This document shows positions 1-35,351 of a stretch of 35,351 nt of DNA, piece after piece. Position 1 is the first letter of the stretch. Every line of letters begins with the position of its first letter. The notes under the pieces were generated by a model that ran no database searches, had not been told where the DNA came from, and worked only from the letters and a program-made list of their open reading frames with translations. Origin of the DNA: a virus; IMG/VR virus record IMGVR_UViG_3300034167_000034, positions 1 to 35,351 of that record; one strand, 5' to 3'. Position numbers and translations under genes: made by a program.

Positions 1-1154
1 TAACTACTGCAATTAAAAAGTTATTGCGTTTAAAGCAACGTATTAAAGTTATTAGAGGTGGAACATCAGCTGGTAAAACATTTGGTATTCTACCTTTGTT
101 AATTGATAAAGCAATAAAAGAACCAATGCTTGAAATAAGTGTTGTATCTGAATCTATTCCACATTTAAGAAGAGGAGCATTAAAAGACTTTTTAAAAATT
201 ATAATGGCACTTGGTAGATATAAAGATGAACAGTTTAACAAATCAACTTTAAAATATACATTTGCAAATGGAAGTTATATTGAATTCTTTAGTGTTGACC
301 AACCTGACAAATTAAGAGGTGCAAGAAGGCATATTTTATACGTTAATGAGTGTAATAATATTGACTTTGATTCTTATTATCAAATGGCTATTAGAACATC
401 AGGCGATATATGGTTAGATTATAACCCTGCATCTTCTTTTTGGGTAGATAAAGAAATATTAACACAAGATAATATAGACTTTATTACATTAACATATTTA
501 GATAATGAAGCGTTATCAGATACTATTATAAAAGAAATAGAATCAGCAAAGGTAAAAGCATTAACATCTACATATTGGGCTAATTGGTGGCAAGTATATG
601 GACTTGGACAAACAGGTAGTTTAGAAGGTGTATGTATTACAGATTGGAATGAAATAGATTTACCTACAGATGCAAGAGTATTGTGTTATGGAATGGACTT
701 TGGTTATTCAAATGACCCTACAAGTTTAGTTGCTATGTATAAATACAATGATGCTTATATATTTGATGAGGTAATATACAAGAAAGGATTATTGAATAGT
801 GAAATATCAAATCTATTAAAGGCAAATGAAGTAAATGATATTGTTTATGCTGATAGTGCAGAACCAAAATCAATAGCTGAATTGAATAGTTATGGACATA
901 ATGTGTTACCAGTATCAAAAGGAAAAGATAGTATCGTATATGGCATTAATTTAATCAATCAAAACAAGATATATGTAACATCAAGAAGTAAGAATCTAAT
1001 TAACGAATTAAGAAACTACATTTGGTTAACAGATAAAACAGGAGTAAAAATGAATAAACCAATAGATGCTTATAATCACGCAATAGATGCTATGAGATAT
1101 GCAGCCACATCACATTTAGAAAACCCAAACAAAGGAACTTACTTTATATACTAA
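1..1154 (+). CDS. terL: Terminase large subunit A (5' end cut by window edge)
   Basis: Motor ATPase and nuclease that packages concatemeric phage DNA into proheads. The frame is open to base 1, so the true start lies just upstream; numbering here counts the TTG at position 24 as residue 1. Walker A is GGTSAGKT (12-19) and the Walker B-like strand is ILYVNE (104-109). The C-terminal RNase H-fold nuclease shows acidic residues in DFGYSND (225-231), ADSAEP (D277) and IDAYNHAIDAMRY (D355). The protein ends in NKGTYFIY. A second large terminase at 31983-33191 has a different ATPase half but a related nuclease half and nearly the same last residues. The stop overlaps the start of the next small gene (TAATG). 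The family call is firm; which small terminase it works with is not visible. Confidence 0.93.
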   Translation, partial: TTAIKKLLRLKQRIKVIRGGTSAGKTFGILPLLIDKAIKEPMLEISVVSESIPHLRRGALKDFLKIIMALGRYKDEQFNKSTLKYTFANGSYIEFFSVDQPDKLRGARRHILYVNECNNIDFDSYYQMAIRTSGDIWLDYNPASSFWVDKEILTQDNIDFITLTYLDNEALSDTIIKEIESAKVKALTSTYWANWWQVYGLGQTGSLEGVCITDWNEIDLPTDARVLCYGMDFGYSNDPTSLVAMYKYNDAYIFDEVIYKKGLLNSEISNLLKANEVNDIVYADSAEPKSIAELNSYGHNVLPVSKGKDSIVYGINLINQNKIYVTSRSKNLINELRNYIWLTDKTGVKMNKPIDAYNHAIDAMRYAATSHLENPNKGTYFIY

Positions 1155-1303
1155 TGACATACGGAGAAATAATTGCAGTAATACAATGTTATATACATCA
1201 CGTTAAAGATATACAAGTGGTTATTAATTTGCCACGTAATATAGGTGAGATTAGAAAGATGCAAGAAATGTATAAGGTTGCAAGTGCTTACCTTTTGCAG
1301 TAG
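1154..1303 (+). CDS. Conserved 49-aa phage protein after terL
   Basis: Unknown function. The start overlaps the terminase stop (TAATG), which suggests translational coupling. A copy follows the second terminase at 33191-33340 with the same length and mostly conservative changes; the central segment NLPRNIGEI and MQEMYKVASAY are identical, so it is under selection. The sequence is predicted helical, without a signal peptide or membrane segment. The position suggests a packaging-related or head-completion role, but that is inference from location only. Confidence 0.75.
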   Translation: MTYGEIIAVIQCYIHHVKDIQVVINLPRNIGEIRKMQEMYKVASAYLLQ

Positions 1304-1388
1304 GATAACTATTAAAATTAGGGTTTATCTTTACATCAAAAGTAATGTTAAATAAATGTTAAAGTAAAATATAAATAACAAAAAGTAT

Positions 1389-1396
1389 TATATTTG
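1389..1396 (+). promoter_or_regulatory. Promoter -7 element of the post-terminase unit
   Basis: TATATTTG matches the Bacteroidetes -7 consensus TAnnTTTG exactly and lies 30 bases before the next start codon. No good -33 TTG is seen at the usual distance. The element and about 55 surrounding bases are conserved in copy 2 (33378-33385). It would drive the small genes and the structured RNA down to the terminator at 2011. Confidence 0.6.
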
Positions 1397-1426
1397 TAAA
1401 ATATATTTAATCTTAAAACAAACAAT

Positions 1427-1645
1427 ATGAAAACAGCAATCCAAGAATTATTTAGTCAATTACAAATAGAGCATCCAGCTTTATTTAACACAAACACTTT
1501 AGAAGGCAGACAATTTGTAAATGATTATTACAAGTTCTTTGAATTAGAAAAGCAACAGATTAAAACTGCTTTTTTTTATGGAGGTAGTGGCAATTTAAAT
1601 GATGATGAATACTATACAGAAACATTTAAAATAGAAACATTATGA
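1427..1645 (+). CDS. 72-aa EKQQI-type small phage protein, present only in copy 1
   Basis: Unknown function. The protein contains LEKQQIKTAF followed by a Gly-rich turn and an acidic tail. It resembles in layout the 53-aa protein at 31289-31450 (EMEKQQIQSAFEKG); small proteins of this kind are common in Bacteroidetes phages. It is preceded by an A-rich leader (AAACAAACA) and overlaps the next gene by ATGA. In the second unit this gene is absent: the same leader runs straight into the 57-aa gene, so it is a clean insertion or deletion of about 216 bp. Confidence 0.7.
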   Translation: MKTAIQELFSQLQIEHPALFNTNTLEGRQFVNDYYKFFELEKQQIKTAFFYGGSGNLNDDEYYTETFKIETL

Positions 1646-1815
1646 AACAATACGAAGTTAAAGGTTGGTACAGATATGCTGACAACGAAAAAGATTATGA
1701 GTATGCTAATATAATAGCAGAAAATGAACAGATGGTTATTACACTATTCAAAGATATGTTTAAACAGGACTTCTTTGCAATAGATATAAAGGAAATTACT
1801 AATGCTAACTGTTAA
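1642..1815 (+). CDS. Conserved 57-aa protein preceding the structured RNA
   Basis: Unknown function. Begins MKQYEVKGWYRYADNEKDYE and ends ITNANC. The homologue at 33416-33589 has the same length; about ten base differences in 174 give several silent and several conservative changes, so it is a real gene. Predicted mixed alpha/beta, small, soluble, aromatic-rich. Its stop lies directly against the 5' end of the conserved RNA, so mRNA and RNA share one promoter and one terminator. It may act with the RNA or simply host it; nothing in the sequence decides. Confidence 0.75.
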   Translation: MKQYEVKGWYRYADNEKDYEYANIIAENEQMVITLFKDMFKQDFFAIDIKEITNANC

Positions 1816-2011
1816 TTAATGATGGTGCTAAAAGGATGAAAAAGGTTTAACAGTAATCTGGAGTACAAGCAAATCATTAGTCAGTAAACCTGCTCTTATG
1901 TAAGCATCGGAGCTGATAATCCGAAATGGCTATAAGAAAAACACAAGGTTAGTAATTTAATTAAAGTACCAGTAGAGCTTCCCGTAAGAACAGCCTTCTG
2001 GTCTTTTTTTT
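1816..2011 (+). ncRNA. Conserved structured RNA downstream of terL, copy 1
   Basis: No credible ORF. The copy at 33590-33785 is identical except for one base (1912, G here, A there), far more conserved than the adjacent genes. Visible pairings: P2 pairs 1843-1851 (AGGTTTAAC) with 1884-1891 (GTAAACCT), one bulged A. Seven bases TAATGAT (1817-1823) pair with ATCATTA (1873-1879) inside the P2 loop, forming a potential pseudoknot. P3 pairs TCTTAT (1894-1899) with ATAAGA (1932-1937), extended by AGC/GCT (1903-1905/1929-1931) and CGG/CCG (1908-1910/1921-1923). The single variable base is in the apical loop of P3. The 3' end is an intrinsic terminator. I do not recognise the family; a regulatory RNA or a packaging-associated RNA are possibilities, both inferred. 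Confidence 0.75.
1968..2011 (+). terminator. Intrinsic terminator of the structured RNA
   Basis: ACCAG (1968-1972) pairs with CTGGT (1998-2002). Inside is a small CTT/AAG hairpin with a CCCGT loop, and eight T follow (2004-2011). The whole element is identical in copy 2 (33742-33785). Confidence 0.8.
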
Positions 2012-2059
2012 GTTTAATACAATTTACACTTTATTTTATTATTATAAAAAACAAATCAA

Positions 2060-2740
2060 ATGAAGTTAGAAATAACAATACCAACTAAATTAAGTGAAAT
2101 AAAACTTTCAGAGTATCAGGCTTTTTTAAAGATAGCTAAAGACAATGAAGATTCAGAATTTCTACATCAAAAGATGGTACAGATATTTTGCGGAATAGAT
2201 TTAAAAGAAGTTGCTTCAATTAAATATAAAGATGTAAATGATATAACTACATCTATTGGAAATATGTTTAACCAGAATCATTCTTTTATACCTACATTTA
2301 AAATGGGTGGAACTGAATTTGGTTTTATTCCTAATTTAGAAGATATGACATTTGGAGAATATACTGATTTAGATACGTATATAACTGATTGGGATGAGAT
2401 ACATAAAGCAATGGCAGTATTGTATAGACCAATTAAAAAGAAGGGCTTAAATGGCACGTATGAGATTGAAGATTATAATGGAACAATAACCTATGCTGAA
2501 GTAATGAAGTTTGCACCATTAGATGTTTGTTTAGGTGCAACGGTTTTTTTTTATCGTTTAGGCAACGAATTATTGAAAGCTACGATAGCTTATTTGGAGA
2601 AGGACACGGAGGTACAGAATATTCTGCAACAGCAAACTTCGGACAAAAGTGGGGATGGTATAGTTCAATCTATGCTCTTGCTCAAGGAGACCTTAACAGA
2701 TTTGACGCAGTTACAAGATTACCAATTAATCAATGTTTAA
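2060..2740 (+). CDS. Tail assembly chaperone, short (zero-frame) form
   Basis: 226-aa protein lying among tail genes, upstream of the tape measure. In long-tailed phages this slot holds the gpG/gpGT-type chaperone that binds the tape measure during tail assembly. Nine T (2544-2552) lie at codons 162-165, and a second open frame continues after the run, which is the hallmark of this gene class. The first 164 residues are almost identical to copy 2 (33893-34573). After the slip the zero-frame tail is less constrained: the stretch near residues 195-210 differs non-conservatively between copies. The start follows an A-rich leader without a Shine-Dalgarno site. The chaperone call rests on position, frameshift architecture and conservation rather than a recognised domain. 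Confidence 0.8.
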   Translation: MKLEITIPTKLSEIKLSEYQAFLKIAKDNEDSEFLHQKMVQIFCGIDLKEVASIKYKDVNDITTSIGNMFNQNHSFIPTFKMGGTEFGFIPNLEDMTFGEYTDLDTYITDWDEIHKAMAVLYRPIKKKGLNGTYEIEDYNGTITYAEVMKFAPLDVCLGATVFFYRLGNELLKATIAYLEKDTEVQNILQQQTSDKSGDGIVQSMLLLKETLTDLTQLQDYQLINV

Positions 2741-2808
2741 CATACCTAACATTTGAAAAAGAAAAGAATAAAATAGAAGCTGATTTAATTAAAAGACAGA
2801 ATAGATGA
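2060..2808 (+). CDS. Tail assembly chaperone, long form by -1 frameshift (gpGT-like)
   Basis: Ribosomes slipping back one base in the T run would join codons 1-164 of the 2060 frame to 85 codons read from 2551, giving about 249 aa. The new C-terminus is rich in aromatic and charged residues (WGWYSSIYALAQGD, then LPINQCLTYLTFEKEKN) and ends four bases into the next gene. Comparing the two copies, changes in this frame are conservative (KW to RY, I to L, L to I, A to S), while the overlapping zero frame changes freely. This shows that the -1 frame is translated. A shorter ORF beginning at 2527 is this downstream half, not an independent gene. Confidence 0.78.
2545..2551 (+). other. -1 ribosomal frameshift slippery site
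   Basis: T TTT TTT in the zero frame, inside a run of nine T (2544-2552). Copy 2 has the same run (34377-34385). A perfect short hairpin, AAGCTA-CGA-TAGCTT, lies about 25 bases downstream and is also conserved; this is farther than usual for a stimulator. The T run could also promote RNA polymerase slippage. Confidence 0.72.
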
Positions 2809-3260
2809 CATCACATTATTACGAAATAACACAAGCAATTAAGAACCAATTAAAGGAAGATTTATTTGTAAATACAGTTACTATTGGAGATATATTTAAA
2901 GTTGATTTAAACAAGCTTACAATCTTTCCTTTGAGCCATATTATAATTAATTCAGCAACATATTTAGGTTCAACTTGGAATTACAATGTGTCTATATTAT
3001 GTATGGATATTGTAGATGAAAGTAAATCATTAACAACTGATATATTTTTAGGTAATGACAATGAGCAAGATGTTTTAAATACACAATTAATGGTAGTTAA
3101 TAGATTCTTGGAAGTATTAAGAATGGGTAAATTTGGAGATGATTATGAATTAGCAGGCACACCATCTTGTGAATTCTTTACAGAAAGATTTGAAAATAAA
3201 TTAGCAGGAGTTACAGTTACTTTTGATATGGTAATACAAAACCAAATGAGCAAATGTTAG
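2805..3260 (+). CDS. Putative tail terminator / tail completion protein
   Basis: 151-aa protein directly after the chaperone frames, overlapping the long-form stop by four bases (ATGA). Layout resembles small tail-terminator proteins of Bacteroidetes siphophages: an N-terminal helix (YYEITQAIKNQL), a beta-rich core containing YNVSILCMDIVDESKS, a DNEQDVLNTQ helix, and a C-terminal strand pair around ENKLAGVTVTFDMVIQNQM. Such proteins form a ring capping the tail tube. The copy at 34638-35093 differs at only one residue (L to M in ENKLAG), showing strong constraint. The assignment is by remembered family resemblance and neighbourhood and could be wrong in detail; a structural protein of the tail or connector is safe. 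Confidence 0.65.
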   Translation: MTSHYYEITQAIKNQLKEDLFVNTVTIGDIFKVDLNKLTIFPLSHIIINSATYLGSTWNYNVSILCMDIVDESKSLTTDIFLGNDNEQDVLNTQLMVVNRFLEVLRMGKFGDDYELAGTPSCEFFTERFENKLAGVTVTFDMVIQNQMSKC

Positions 3261-3760
3261 AAGTTCAAAAGACTTTAATTAAATTCAGGGATTATGTTAT
3301 CCAACAATCAAGAAGTAATTTAACCAAAAGTGGAAAGAATAGTTCTAAAGAACTTTATAATTCTATTAAAGGTGAAATTGTAACTGACAAAGGATTTAAC
3401 ATAGTTGGCTTTTCTATGGTTGATTATGGTATTTATCAGGATAAAGGAGTTTCTGGTAAGATTAAAAAATACAATACACCATATAGTTATAAAAATAAAA
3501 TGCCTCCTGCAAAAGCATTTGATAAATGGATGGTAAGAAAAGGTATTGCACCAAGAAACGCTAAAGGAGAATTTCAATCAAGAAAAGGTTTGCAATATGC
3601 AATAACAAGAAGTATATTTTTAAATGGAATTAAACCTTCTTTATTTTTCACTAAACCATTTGAAGCAGGATATAAAAAATATATAGATGTAGATTTAATA
3701 AAAGCATTTGGACAAGATGTTGAAACAATGGTAGATTATAATTTAAAAGATATAAAATAA
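3254..3760 (+). CDS. HK97 gp10-like neck/tail completion protein
   Basis: 168-aa protein overlapping the preceding gene by seven bases. It has an N-terminal helix, a central DYGIYQDKGVSGK segment, then YSYKNKMPPAKAFDKWMVRKGI, and the phrase GIKPSLFFTKPFEAGY near the end. This layout (position-of-body motif, Pro-rich loop, KPFFxxPF) matches the gp10-like head-tail joining or minor tail proteins of siphophages. The partial copy at the window end (35087 onward) is nearly identical over its first 88 residues. It probably acts at the head-tail junction or in tail maturation. Confidence 0.65.
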   Translation: MLEVQKTLIKFRDYVIQQSRSNLTKSGKNSSKELYNSIKGEIVTDKGFNIVGFSMVDYGIYQDKGVSGKIKKYNTPYSYKNKMPPAKAFDKWMVRKGIAPRNAKGEFQSRKGLQYAITRSIFLNGIKPSLFFTKPFEAGYKKYIDVDLIKAFGQDVETMVDYNLKDIK

Positions 3761-31705: not shown

Positions 31706-32002
31706 ATGGAAGATAAAAGAAAATACAATGGCGGAAATAAAAACGCTGGACGTAAACCAAAAGTAGAAGAAGAAAAAGTAAACAATATATTTTTAAAAGC
31801 ATTAGGTGAACTTTACAATAAAGATACAGAAGAAGAAACAAAGATAGCTTTTGTTAAATCTACACTAATGGAATCACAAAGAGGACAGTTGTTTATTGCT
31901 GAACATATATTTGGTAAGCCAAAAGAAATAATAGAAGCTACACATAATGTAAATGATTTTAACATAAAAGATATATTTAAAATTGGAAATAAATCTGAAT
32001 GA
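31706..32002 (+). CDS. terS: Terminase small subunit (putative)
   Basis: 98 aa from the ATG encoding MEDKRKYNGGNKNAGRKPKV; an upstream in-frame ATG at 31667 would add a hydrophobic, unlikely leader. The GGxKNAGRKPK start is a basic DNA-binding motif common in small terminases, and the C-terminal part has LFIAEHIFGKPKEIIEATHN, a pattern often seen in the same family. It recognises the packaging site and loads the large subunit. Its end overlaps the large terminase start by 20 bases. Confidence 0.75.
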   Translation: MEDKRKYNGGNKNAGRKPKVEEEKVNNIFLKALGELYNKDTEEETKIAFVKSTLMESQRGQLFIAEHIFGKPKEIIEATHNVNDFNIKDIFKIGNKSE

Positions 32003-33191
32003 AAAATATAATCTATTAGGAAGTGAAAGTAGATACTTTGTAATTACAGGTGGAAGGGGTTCAGGGAAATCATATTCTTTGAACTCATTTCTATTGTTGC
32101 TTACTTATGAAGTTGGACACGTTATATTATTTACAAGATATACTTTAACATCTGCAAATGTTTCTATTATTCCTGAATTTATAGATAAGATTGAAACAGC
32201 CAATTTAAGCCACGAATTTTATATTACGAAGGATGAAATAGTAAATCTTAAAACAGGGTCTAAAATCATCTTTAAAGGTATTAAAACAAGTAGTGGAACA
32301 CAAACTGCAAGTTTAAAATCTTTAGCAGGAGTTACAACTTGGGTATTAGATGAAGCAGAAGAATTAAATGACGAAGAAATATTTGAAAAGATTGATTTTA
32401 GTATAAGAACTAAAGGAGTTCAGAATAGAGTTTTACTTGTATTGAATCCTGCAACAAAAGAACATTTCATTTATAAGAAATTCTTTGAAGATAAAGGAAT
32501 AGAAGCGGGTAGTAATTTAATTAAAGGAGACACAACTTATATACATACAACATACCAAGATAATATACATAACCTTTCTGAATCATTTATTAATCAGATT
32601 GAAAATATAAAGAAACGTAGACCAGAAAAGTATAAACATCAAATATTAGGTGGATGGTTAGATAAAGCAGAAGGAGTTATATTTACTAACTGGACAATTG
32701 GAAAGTATGAACACGTAGGTAAATCTATTTTTGGACAAGATTATGGATTTGCTTCAGATGCTTCAACTTTAGTGGAATGTAATATAGATATAACAAATAA
32801 AAAGATTTATGTTAATGAAAGATTTTATCTTCACGGATTAACTACTTCACAAATATACAATCTAAATAAACAACACGCTGACGATTGTTTAATAGTTGCT
32901 GATTCAGCTGAACCAAGATTGATAAGTGAATTATCTACATTAGGTTTAAATATAGTTCCTGCAATTAAAGGGCCAGATTCTGTTACTTATGGAATTAGTG
33001 TATTGCAAGATTATGATTTAATAGTATCGCCTGAATCAATTAATCTAATAAAAGAATTAAACAACTATTGTTGGTTAGAAAAAAGGTCAAAAACTCCAAT
33101 AGATGCCCACAATCATATTATCGACCCATTGCGTTATTGTGTTACATATCAATTAGGAAATTTAAACAAAGGAAGTTACTTTATATACTAA
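31983..33191 (+). CDS. terL: Terminase large subunit B
   Basis: 402-aa packaging motor. Walker A GGRGSGKS (23-30), Walker B VLDEAEE (121-127), coupling segment VLNPATKE, and the nuclease acids in QDYGFASD (Asp253), ADSAEP (Asp307) and DAHNHIIDPLRY (Asp381). The best start is TTG at 31983 giving (M)EINLNEKYNLL, since the frame opens at 31968, no ATG is near, and family members begin with a similar N-K-Y phrase; it lies inside the terS gene. The ATPase half is unlike TerL-A at the window start, while the last residues are nearly the same. Confidence 0.92.
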   Translation: MEINLNEKYNLLGSESRYFVITGGRGSGKSYSLNSFLLLLTYEVGHVILFTRYTLTSANVSIIPEFIDKIETANLSHEFYITKDEIVNLKTGSKIIFKGIKTSSGTQTASLKSLAGVTTWVLDEAEELNDEEIFEKIDFSIRTKGVQNRVLLVLNPATKEHFIYKKFFEDKGIEAGSNLIKGDTTYIHTTYQDNIHNLSESFINQIENIKKRRPEKYKHQILGGWLDKAEGVIFTNWTIGKYEHVGKSIFGQDYGFASDASTLVECNIDITNKKIYVNERFYLHGLTTSQIYNLNKQHADDCLIVADSAEPRLISELSTLGLNIVPAIKGPDSVTYGISVLQDYDLIVSPESINLIKELNNYCWLEKRSKTPIDAHNHIIDPLRYCVTYQLGNLNKGSYFIY

Positions 33192-33340
33192 TGACATACG
33201 GAGAAATAATTTCAACAATACAATGTTATATTCATCACATAAAGAATATAGAAGTGGTTATTAATTTGCCACGTAATATAGGTGAGATTAAAAAGATGCA
33301 AGAGATGTATAAAGTTGCAAGTGCTTATTTGAATAGTTAA
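33191..33340 (+). CDS. Conserved 49-aa protein, copy 2
   Basis: Same length and layout as 1154-1303, TAATG overlap with terminase B. Differences are scattered and mostly conservative (for example IAVIQ to ISTIQ, VKDIQ to IKNIE), with an altered last four residues. Function unknown. Confidence 0.75.
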   Translation: MTYGEIISTIQCYIHHIKNIEVVINLPRNIGEIKKMQEMYKVASAYLNS

Positions 33341-33377
33341 ATAAATGTTAAAGTAAAATATAACTAACAAAAAGTAT

Positions 33378-33385
33378 TATATTTG
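33378..33385 (+). promoter_or_regulatory. Promoter -7 element, copy 2
   Basis: TATATTTG in the same context as 1389-1396; it drives the 57-aa gene and the structured RNA of this unit. Confidence 0.6.
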
Positions 33386-33415
33386 TAAAATATATTTAAT
33401 CTTAAAACAAACATT

Positions 33416-33589
33416 ATGAAACAATACGAAGTTAAAGGTTGGTACAGATACGCTGACAACGAGAAAGATTATGAGTATGCTGAAATAATAGCAGCAAACG
33501 AACAAATGGTTATTACACTATTCAGAGATATGTTTAAACAGAACTTCTTTGCAATAGATATAAAAGAAATTACTAATGCTAACTGTTAA
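33416..33589 (+). CDS. Conserved 57-aa protein, copy 2
   Basis: Homologue of 1642-1815 with the same length; changes include YANIIAENE to YAEIIAANE and KDMFKQD to RDMFKQN. Here it is the only protein gene of the promoter-RNA unit, following the A-rich leader directly. Confidence 0.75.
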   Translation: MKQYEVKGWYRYADNEKDYEYAEIIAANEQMVITLFRDMFKQNFFAIDIKEITNANC

Positions 33590-33785
33590 TTAATGATGGT
33601 GCTAAAAGGATGAAAAAGGTTTAACAGTAATCTGGAGTACAAGCAAATCATTAGTCAGTAAACCTGCTCTTATGTAAGCATCGGAACTGATAATCCGAAA
33701 TGGCTATAAGAAAAACACAAGGTTAGTAATTTAATTAAAGTACCAGTAGAGCTTCCCGTAAGAACAGCCTTCTGGTCTTTTTTTT
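33590..33785 (+). ncRNA. Conserved structured RNA, copy 2
   Basis: Identical to 1816-2011 except A at 33686, which lies in the loop of P3. The pseudoknot pairing (33591-33597 with 33647-33653), P2, P3 and the terminator (33742-33785, with eight T) are all kept. Confidence 0.75.
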
Positions 33786-33844
33786 GTTCACTTATTTTTA
33801 ATGTTCATTATTTGTGAACGTTAATTATTTGTGAACTTTTTTTT
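33786..33844 (+). terminator. Second terminator-like element, only in copy 2
   Basis: GTTCAC (33786-33791) can pair with GTGAAC (33831-33836), followed by eight T (33837-33844). Inside, GTTCA (33803-33807) can pair with TGAAC (33815-33819), and TTATTTGTGAAC occurs twice (33808-33819, 33825-33836), so alternative folds exist. It backs up the RNA terminator. Confidence 0.6.
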
Positions 33845-33892
33845 GTTTAATACAATTTACACATTATTTTATTATTATAAAAAACAAATCAA

Positions 33893-34573
33893 ATGAAATT
33901 AGAAATAACAATACCAACTAAATTAAGTGAAATAAAACTTTCACAATATCAGGCTTTTTTAAAGATAGCTAAAGACAATGAAGATTCCGAGTTCCTGCAT
34001 CAAAAGATGGTACAGATATTTTGTGGAATAGATTTAAAAGAAGTTGCTTCAATTAAATATAAAGATGTAAATGATATAACTACATCTATTGGAAATATGT
34101 TTAACCAGAATCATTCTTTTATATCTACATTTAAAATGGGCGGAACTGAATTTGGTTTCATTCCTAATTTAGAAGATATGACATTTGGAGAGTATACAGA
34201 TTTAGACACGTATATAACCGATTGGGATGAGATACATAAAGCTATGGCAGTATTATATCGACCAATTAAAAAGAAAGGCTTAAATGGAACGTATGAGATT
34301 GAAGATTATAATGGAACTATAACTTATGCAGAAGTAATGAAGTTTGCTCCTTTAGATGTTTGTTTAGGTGCTACGGTTTTTTTTTATCGTTTAGGCAACG
34401 AATTATTGAAAGCTACGATAGCTTATTTGGAGAAGGACAAGGAGGTACAGAATATTCTGCAACGGCATTATTCAACTCCAGATATGGATGGTACAGTAGC
34501 CTCTATGCTCTTGCTCAAGGAGACATTAACAGATTTGACTCAGTTACAAGATTACCAATTAATCAATGTTTAA
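33893..34573 (+). CDS. Tail assembly chaperone, short form, copy 2
   Basis: 226 aa, counterpart of 2060-2740. In the first 164 residues it differs at two sites (EYQAF to QYQAF, IPTF to ISTF). After the T run the zero-frame tail changes more, including ILQQQTSDKS to ILQRHYSTPD, which suits a frame under weak constraint. Confidence 0.8.
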   Translation: MKLEITIPTKLSEIKLSQYQAFLKIAKDNEDSEFLHQKMVQIFCGIDLKEVASIKYKDVNDITTSIGNMFNQNHSFISTFKMGGTEFGFIPNLEDMTFGEYTDLDTYITDWDEIHKAMAVLYRPIKKKGLNGTYEIEDYNGTITYAEVMKFAPLDVCLGATVFFYRLGNELLKATIAYLEKDKEVQNILQRHYSTPDMDGTVASMLLLKETLTDLTQLQDYQLINV

Positions 34574-34641
34574 CATATCTAACATTTGAAAAAGAAAAGA
34601 ATAAAATAGAAGCTGATTTAATTAAAAGACAAAATAGATGA
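33893..34641 (+). CDS. Tail assembly chaperone, -1 frameshift long form, copy 2
   Basis: Zero frame up to the T run then the -1 frame to 34641. The tail keeps GGTEYSATA, YGWYSSLYALAQGD and TRLPINQCLTYLTFEKEKN with conservative changes only, confirming that this frame is translated in both units. Confidence 0.77.
34378..34384 (+). other. -1 frameshift slippery site, copy 2
   Basis: T TTT TTT in the zero frame within nine T (34377-34385), same as copy 1; the downstream AAGCTA-CGA-TAGCTT hairpin is also kept. Confidence 0.72.
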
Positions 34642-35093
34642 CATCACATTATTACGAAATAACACAAGCAATTAAGAACCAATTAAAGGAAGATTTATTT
34701 GTAAATACAGTTACTATTGGAGACATATTTAAAGTTGATTTAAACAAGCTTACAATCTTTCCTTTAAGTCATATTATAATTAATTCAGCTACATATTTAG
34801 GTTCAACTTGGAATTACAATGTGTCTATATTATGTATGGATATTGTAGATGAAAGTAAATCATTAACAACTGATATATTTTTAGGTAATGACAATGAGCA
34901 AGATGTTTTAAATACGCAATTAATGGTAGTTAATAGATTCTTGGAAGTATTAAGAATGGGTAAATTTGGTGATGATTATGAATTAGCAGGTACACCATCT
35001 TGTGAATTTTTTACAGAAAGATTTGAAAATAAAATGGCAGGTGTAACTGTTACTTTTGATATGGTAATACAAAACCAAATGAGCAAATGTTAG
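34638..35093 (+). CDS. Putative tail terminator, copy 2
   Basis: 151 aa; one residue differs from 2805-3260 (LAGVTV to MAGVTV) while several silent base changes occur, which indicates purifying selection. Overlaps the chaperone long-form stop by four bases. Confidence 0.65.
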   Translation: MTSHYYEITQAIKNQLKEDLFVNTVTIGDIFKVDLNKLTIFPLSHIIINSATYLGSTWNYNVSILCMDIVDESKSLTTDIFLGNDNEQDVLNTQLMVVNRFLEVLRMGKFGDDYELAGTPSCEFFTERFENKMAGVTVTFDMVIQNQMSKC

Positions 35094-35351
35094 AAGTTCA
35101 AAAGACTTTAATTAAATTTAGGGATTATGTTATCCAACAATCAAGAAGTAATTTAACCAAAGGTGGAAAGAATAGTTCTAAAGAATTATATAATTCTATT
35201 AAAGGTGAAATTGTAAGTGAAAATGGATTTAACATAGTTGGCTTTTCTATGGTTGATTATGGTATTTATCAGGATAAAGGAGTTTCTGGTAAGATTAAAA
35301 AATACAATACACCATATAGTTATAAAAATAAAATGCCTCCTGCAAAAGCAT
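35087..35351 (+). CDS. gp10-like neck/tail protein, copy 2, cut by window end
   Basis: First 88 codons of the counterpart of 3254-3760. Differences are S to G (LTKSGK to LTKGGK) and TDKGFN to SENGFN. The reading frame is intact to the last base. Confidence 0.65.
   Translation, partial: MLEVQKTLIKFRDYVIQQSRSNLTKGGKNSSKELYNSIKGEIVSENGFNIVGFSMVDYGIYQDKGVSGKIKKYNTPYSYKNKMPPAKA

Follow-up and report, generated by a model that had tools for sequence, protein, structure and literature searches.

A previously undescribed family of pseudoknotted phage RNAs and its two copies in a viral contig

T4 RNAs C and D (species 1 and 2) are small stable phage RNAs of unknown function, encoded within a tRNA cluster (PMC9697503). 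Here they serve as the first point of comparison for an RNA element found in two copies in a 35,351-nucleotide (nt) stretch of viral DNA, positions 1 to 35,351 of the IMG/VR record IMGVR_UViG_3300034167_000034; this whole stretch is called the window. The element belongs to a family whose members have either a standard order of helices (type 1) or a circularly permuted one (type 2). Like T4 RNAs C and D, many family members are small phage-encoded RNAs within tRNA clusters, and their genomic spacing would fit release from the cluster as discrete stable RNAs. Homology was rejected: the type-1 covariance model (R1, described below) gave no match in T4 69500–73500 at default filters, and its only hit with filters off, outside rnaC and rnaD and on the strand opposite to them, reached no more than 14 bits (E 0.05). 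T4 lacks the family RNA in that region, whereas the T4-like phages mogra and KVP40 carry it. Stable phage RNAs of unknown function in tRNA clusters have been known since T4 RNAs C and D, and the present family adds an example defined by covariation.

GOLLD and ROOL are also phage or prophage RNAs of unknown function, often located close to tRNA islands. In pull-downs, GOLLD was found to bind ribosomes (PMC12286853), which offers a precedent for the family RNA and is not evidence about it. However, many GOLLD RNAs are longer than 800 nt, and GOLLD and ROOL both assemble into nanocages, while the family RNA is about 90–130 nt long and matches neither Rfam model. The pseudoknot domains of tmRNA (RF00023) are comparable in that permuted family copies directly follow the tag open reading frame (ORF) in some phage tmRNAs. 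Standalone copies, in contrast, possess neither a tRNA-like domain nor a tag ORF, only a minority of relatives lie inside tmRNAs, and bacterial genomes of three phyla contain no match bar one likely prophage. Hammerhead and twister ribozymes, the best-known natural circular permutations (PMC10085705), share with the family a small conserved core known in permuted forms, but the family has no sequence or structure match to known ribozymes in Rfam.

The RNA family is previously undescribed and absent from Rfam 15. A search with its 4227 models at the gathering threshold returned only tRNA and tmRNA matches for the window, L003, L009, L015, L063, L112 and other loci; the window RNA had no meaningful match at E up to 5, and the RNA of phage Hena1 had none. 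This agrees with a first, sequence-only reading of the window, made without database searches, which could match the element to no known family. Annotation of this RNA is absent from the GenBank records viewed (the copies in KVP40 and RaK2, for example, are unannotated), and the open literature searched, with subscription journals mostly outside that search, yielded no description of the family.

A fold shared by distant phages

The fold was evaluated in two alignments: A1, containing 50 type-1 sequences, and A2, containing 12 sequences of the window subfamily. R1 was built from A1 and includes no window-type sequence. Type-1 RNAs measure about 90–130 nt, reaching 167 nt in the window phages, which have an extra arm. 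Their elements follow in A1 the order P0, a joint AGUGAAG or AGUACG, P1a, P1b, P2, the pseudoknot, and then NGAAANACCCNAAG leading back to P0. P0 closes the fold with up to 10 or more pairs, and all 10 P0 pairs are changed on both sides within the family. P1a occurs as CUG/CAG, CUC/GAG, CAG/CUG and other variants, with 100% of cells paired. The P2 loop reads GAAAAAGGGUU, and its GGGUU pairs with AACCC located just 3′ of P1a, forming the pseudoknot.

Overall, 93.9% of the cells in A1 are paired, and the covariation score is 0.503, compared to 0.169 for shuffled alignments (none among 500 reached it) and no more than 0.124 for slid partners. The search pattern required the pseudoknot, which accounts for its near-invariance in A1; elsewhere compensatory changes turn it into GCAUU/AAUGC in KVP40, GGGCUU/AAGCCC in Vibrio phage 2.275.O and GGGCCU/AGGCCC in DSS3_MAL1. 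The A2 score is 0.280 versus 0.157, with P1, P2 and the pseudoknot 95–100% paired; the combined P1b and P1c helix has 97.9% of cells paired and 6 of its 12 pairs changed on both sides. The lower score of P0 in A2 results from misregistration of the window row at that end. Covariation among homologues, which the sequence-only reading had proposed as a check, is thus strongly positive. The folding energy of the single sequence is uninformative (z = 0.15), and the evidence is comparative.

R1 finds both window copies with 39.2 bits and E 1.8e-7 (matches at 1809–1892 and 33583–33666), and P0, P1a, P1b, P2, the pseudoknot and the core that define the family are all present in the window RNA. Comparison across relatives shows that this common fold, comprising P0, P1a/P1b, P2 and the pseudoknot, is real and under selection, as judged from the sequences aligned.

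The first window copy spans 1792–1958 from P0 to its partner strand, including the extra arm, as delimited by the closing helix, the A2 alignment, covariation and the R1 match; all window features given here and below are on the + strand. The 5′ strand of P0, AAATTACTAA (1793–1802), forms 10 perfect pairs with TTAGTAATTT (1949–1958) and lies inside the 3′ end of a 57-aa ORF (1642–1815, without PHROG match), so that the RNA overlaps the final codons of this ORF. P1a is formed by CTG (1809–1811) and CAG (1882–1884), P1b by TTAATGAT (1816–1823) and ATCATTAG (1873–1880), and P1c, paired in the window, by 1826–1829 and 1868–1871. GGAT (1834–1837) pairs with 1856–1859 as P2, which covaries in A1. 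The near-invariant core GGTGCTAAAAGGATGAAAAAGG (1824–1845) covers the 5′ strands of P1c and P2, an A-rich loop and the start of the pseudoknot strand. The pseudoknot itself pairs GGTTTA (1844–1849) with TAAACC (1885–1890).

The sequence-only reading had rightly expected a pseudoknot but named the wrong helix, since TTAATGAT/ATCATTAG is the ordinary P1b. Its limits for the RNA, 1816–2011, need correction at both ends: the start lies upstream, with P0 beginning at 1793 in the 57-aa ORF, and the end is near 1958. The branched hairpin it described is present at 1894–1937; alignment A2 places it within the conserved UGAAA loop as a peripheral arm, which is missing from most relatives. Independent insertions at the same site occur in Vibrio phage phiKT1024 (L188) and Bacillus phage Eldridge (L194). 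The family has a conserved GAAANACCC after the pseudoknot; in the window group the extra arm is followed by AAAACACAAGG (1938–1948), which A2 aligns as the recognisable but diverged counterpart of the family GAAANACCCNAAG.

Relatives, circular permutation and tmRNA genes

A search of IMG/VR seeded with the exact 22-mer core GGTGCTAAAAGGATGAAAAAGG returned 15 loci. Twelve are of the window phage type, while L003 and L009 (a 170-kb phage) and L015 (a 116-kb phage) differ, having the motif inside tRNA arrays. In these diverged copies the helices are kept by paired changes, and a common 3′ element, GAAAGACCCGAAG, is present. Through this element, blastn with the diverged copies matched unannotated spots in Klebsiella phage RaK2, Erwinia phage Hena1 and Pseudomonas phage Milchi. 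Further carriers include Rhizobium, Proteus and Pectobacterium phages and the T4-like Escherichia phage mogra (with others, 55 records; 51 records in another search), Vibrio phage KVP40 and its relatives (33 records), Ruegeria phage DSS3_MAL1 (host taken from the phage name) and Bacillus phage Eldridge; PM135 is among the dozens of named carriers. A pattern based on the pseudoknot yielded at least 120 IMG/VR stretches, nearly all of them true members on inspection. The hosts span Bacillus, Alphaproteobacteria and Gammaproteobacteria, and probably also include Bacteroidota. Since blastn with the long type-1 form (L062) gave no match among named phages, none of those searched represents the close relatives that the window form has in metagenomes.

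Several candidates were discarded. Loci L020–L033 and L035–L045, collected with the loose patterns TGCTAAAAGG...AAGCAANTCA and GCTAAAAGGATGAA...GCAA, are mostly chance matches in coding sequence, and L046–L053 from a scan of genome contigs are chance matches only. A 9-mer shared with 23S rRNA (GAAAGACCC) was dismissed because its G varies within the family.

In type-2 RNAs the parts run P2–pseudoknot–GAAANACCC–(P0 closed or lost)–AGNNCGCUGUUAGG–P1b, the new chain ends lying between P1 and P2. Although its bases are unrelated, P1b forms in 27 of 27 type-2 sequences, with a mean helix score of 16.6 compared to 9.2 for swapped partners (maximum 10.9). A third circular permutation was not found with the one pattern tried. 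Comparison of the two forms shows the folded RNA to be independent of the position of its chain ends.

Some type-2 copies reside inside phage tmRNA genes. The permuted domain follows the tag ORF in L112 (1312–1753), L136 (6229–6637) and L063 (5226–5681); Rfam identifies L112 and L136 as tmRNAs, and ARAGORN does so for L112 and L063. In all three the domain apparently replaces a standard pseudoknot. A different arrangement is seen in L139 (200–500, − strand), where ARAGORN identifies a phage circularly permuted tmRNA with a tag ending in GYVALAA. Here the RNA fills the exact spacer between ...TCCACCA and GGGGCTGA... (CCA to GGGG), which would be excised by processing. In L082 (12570–12680), the sequence before the RNA resembles a tmRNA tag (NNNDNTPPGFGALA*), and neither ARAGORN nor Rfam calls a tmRNA there.

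Such permutations bring to mind a new class of small self-cleaving ribozymes that would cut polycistronic phage transcripts. The RNA is small and pseudoknotted, has highly conserved unpaired nucleotides, sits between unrelated genes and tRNAs of phages, and is circularly permuted in the manner best known from hammerhead and twister (PMC10085705). However, no conserved nucleotide outside P0 marks a cleavage site at the edge, a cut inside a standard tmRNA would sever it downstream of the tag ORF, no Rfam ribozyme is matched, and both strands of P0 are retained as a long helix, as in a stable RNA. We regard a self-cleaving ribozyme as improbable.

Genomic context and possible role

Among 115 distinct copies, 64 are located no more than 300 nt from a tRNA or tmRNA gene; the random rate in the same loci is 23%, a figure due to their richness in tRNAs. 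Where the locus contains a tRNA or tmRNA gene, nearly all copies (79 of 80) share the strand of that gene. Type-1 copies are placed more tightly, 39 of 57 lying within 15 nt of a tRNA, and the commonest gaps are 0–3 nt to the upstream tRNA and 3–6 nt to the downstream one. The remaining copies are found between unrelated genes (polymerase, ribonucleotide reductase, primase, tail; names read from translations), without a constant partner. Each of six phage records, 34–355 kb in size, has exactly one copy. The window phage has no tRNA or tmRNA gene. The sequence-only reading had placed the RNA downstream of terminases, which holds in the window but is confined to the window phage group, most relatives being situated within tRNA arrays. 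One such array, in the 170-kb phage, includes a tRNA with a four-base anticodon (aaat) predicted by ARAGORN (L009, 3885–3960).

Flanking processing sites in the tRNA arrays and in the permuted tmRNA would free a discrete RNA, held shut by P0 or, in type 2, by the outer stem, which makes a stable trans-acting RNA the simplest reading. We propose that the family consists of phage-specific, stably folded noncoding RNAs that act in trans, widespread and not represented in Rfam, and we give this proposal an even chance of being right. In most phages, the tRNA-processing enzymes that trim the neighbours would cut the RNA from tRNA precursors, and the long P0 helix would shield its ends; in window phages, the RNA would instead be made from a short unit with its own terminator. 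The folded core rather than the ends may then bind a partner to the benefit of the phage. That the core stays nearly constant in phages of Bacillus, Alphaproteobacteria and Gammaproteobacteria suggests that this partner is common to all bacteria, and the tRNA and tmRNA neighbours suggest that it most likely belongs to the machinery of translation or RNA processing. The 57-aa protein of the window is an unlikely partner, its ORF having been seen in window-type phages only. With slightly less than even confidence, we also suggest that the family is a previously unknown class of phage RNA with a self-contained, circularly permutable active core, serving phages of unrelated hosts either as a new ribozyme or by taking over universally conserved host machinery, for instance the ribosome or an enzyme of tRNA processing.

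Several points weigh against a phage-specific trans-acting RNA. Copies far from tRNAs, between unrelated phage genes, would suit a cis-acting element equally well, and so would those inside standard phage tmRNAs (L063, L112, L136), from which discrete release is not expected. Another point concerns bacterial chromosomes, whose lack of the RNA is provisional, as the genome searches used strict filters and the type-1 model and rare chromosomal or permuted copies may escape them. Within that scope, no match was found in 5,426 E. coli genomes or in two further phyla, to which a Leucothrix and a Peptostreptococcaceae metagenome-assembled genome belong (0 of 398 and 0 of 299 genomes). Among 296 Bacteroidota genomes there was one true type-2 match, probably a prophage; L187 from the same search is a chance match.

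A cis-acting element would control stability or processing, serving as an exonuclease block or an endonuclease landing site in any transcript that carries it. This agrees with the near-constant orientation along the flanking genes, with the position of the window copy, which would close a short transcript directly ahead of the terminator, and with the occurrence in tRNA, tmRNA and mRNA spacers alike. However, a generic stability element should recur, whereas each genome has one copy; core conservation is far above the needs of a roadblock, and the spacing within tRNA slots is precise. We consider this the least probable of the alternatives, below even the self-cleaving ribozyme.

The phage-only distribution, very broad host range, single copy and tRNA neighbours may also point to an anti-defense RNA, a decoy or sponge for a host nuclease or a signaling molecule used against phages; tRNA arrays are themselves termed a putative antidefense system in a Mycobacterium study (PMC12803027). 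Yet decoys are expected to diverge rapidly, unlike a core that is near-invariant across very different hosts, and no defense gene was found linked to the RNA. This role appears unlikely, though less so than self-cleavage.

Returning to the family as a whole, its strong conservation across phages of varied hosts implies a basic function in infection that is invisible to protein annotation, and this function is directly testable because carriers have been cultivated. Circular permutation and insertion into tmRNA, rare in natural RNAs, may also inform on how functional RNA modules move.

Two copies in the window and their locus

The segments 1816–2011 and 33590–33785, described earlier as near-identical, are 196 nt each and differ by a single mismatch. 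Over the full RNA (1792–1958 and 33566–33732) the copies differ at 1 of 167 positions (99.4% identity), compared to 10 of 150 in the part of the 57-aa ORF preceding the RNA (93.3%), which bears out conservation beyond the coding level. The downstream 226-aa gene differs at 48 of 681 positions (93.0% identity), and the genes adjoining the two copies diverge by 3–15%. In other phages of the window type, the RNA is 1–5 of 167 bases away from that of the window and the 57-aa ORF 7–12 of 150.

An intrinsic terminator, a hairpin ACCAGTAGAGC...CCTTCTGGT followed by a T-run (1968–2010, read from the sequence), is identical in both copies (0 of 53 differences). It had been taken for the end of the RNA; however, in five window-type phages (L004, L008, L012, L013, L014) it is wholly swapped for an unrelated terminator while the RNA remains 98–99% identical, which identifies it as a separate module. 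Upstream, TATATTTG (1389–1396, conserved at 33378–33385) reads as a Bacteroidota-like −7 element (TAnnTTTG) and is a candidate promoter, from which the 57-aa ORF and the RNA may be transcribed as a short unit stopping at the terminator.

The two RNA copies follow different large terminase genes, A (24–1154, gene start cut by the contig end; PHROG terminase, E 1.6e-35) and B (31983–33191; PHROG terminase, E 1.7e-43); the two terminases are 51.8% identical. Window regions 1–3518 and 31983–35351 are variants of one locus, with downstream genes about 93% identical. As the contig starts and ends in these variants, the copies, both real, are probably alleles of two strains joined by assembly rather than duplicates within one genome. 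The contig would then probably combine two strains of a phage whose genome, circular or terminally redundant, measures about 32 kb; a natural terminase exchange is the alternative. The question has no effect on the findings for the family, since independent phages carry the same RNA.

The locus has two further features. Copy 2 is separated from the next gene (33786–33850) by about 59 inserted nt that contain inverted-repeat-like GTTCACTTATTTTTAATG...GTTCATTATTTGTGAAC units and have no counterpart at copy 1. A run of 8 or 9 T (2540–2552 and 34375–34387) is located in the overlap of the 226-aa ORF with a 93-aa ORF that is read in a different frame, the arrangement expected if tail assembly chaperones are made by programmed frameshifting.
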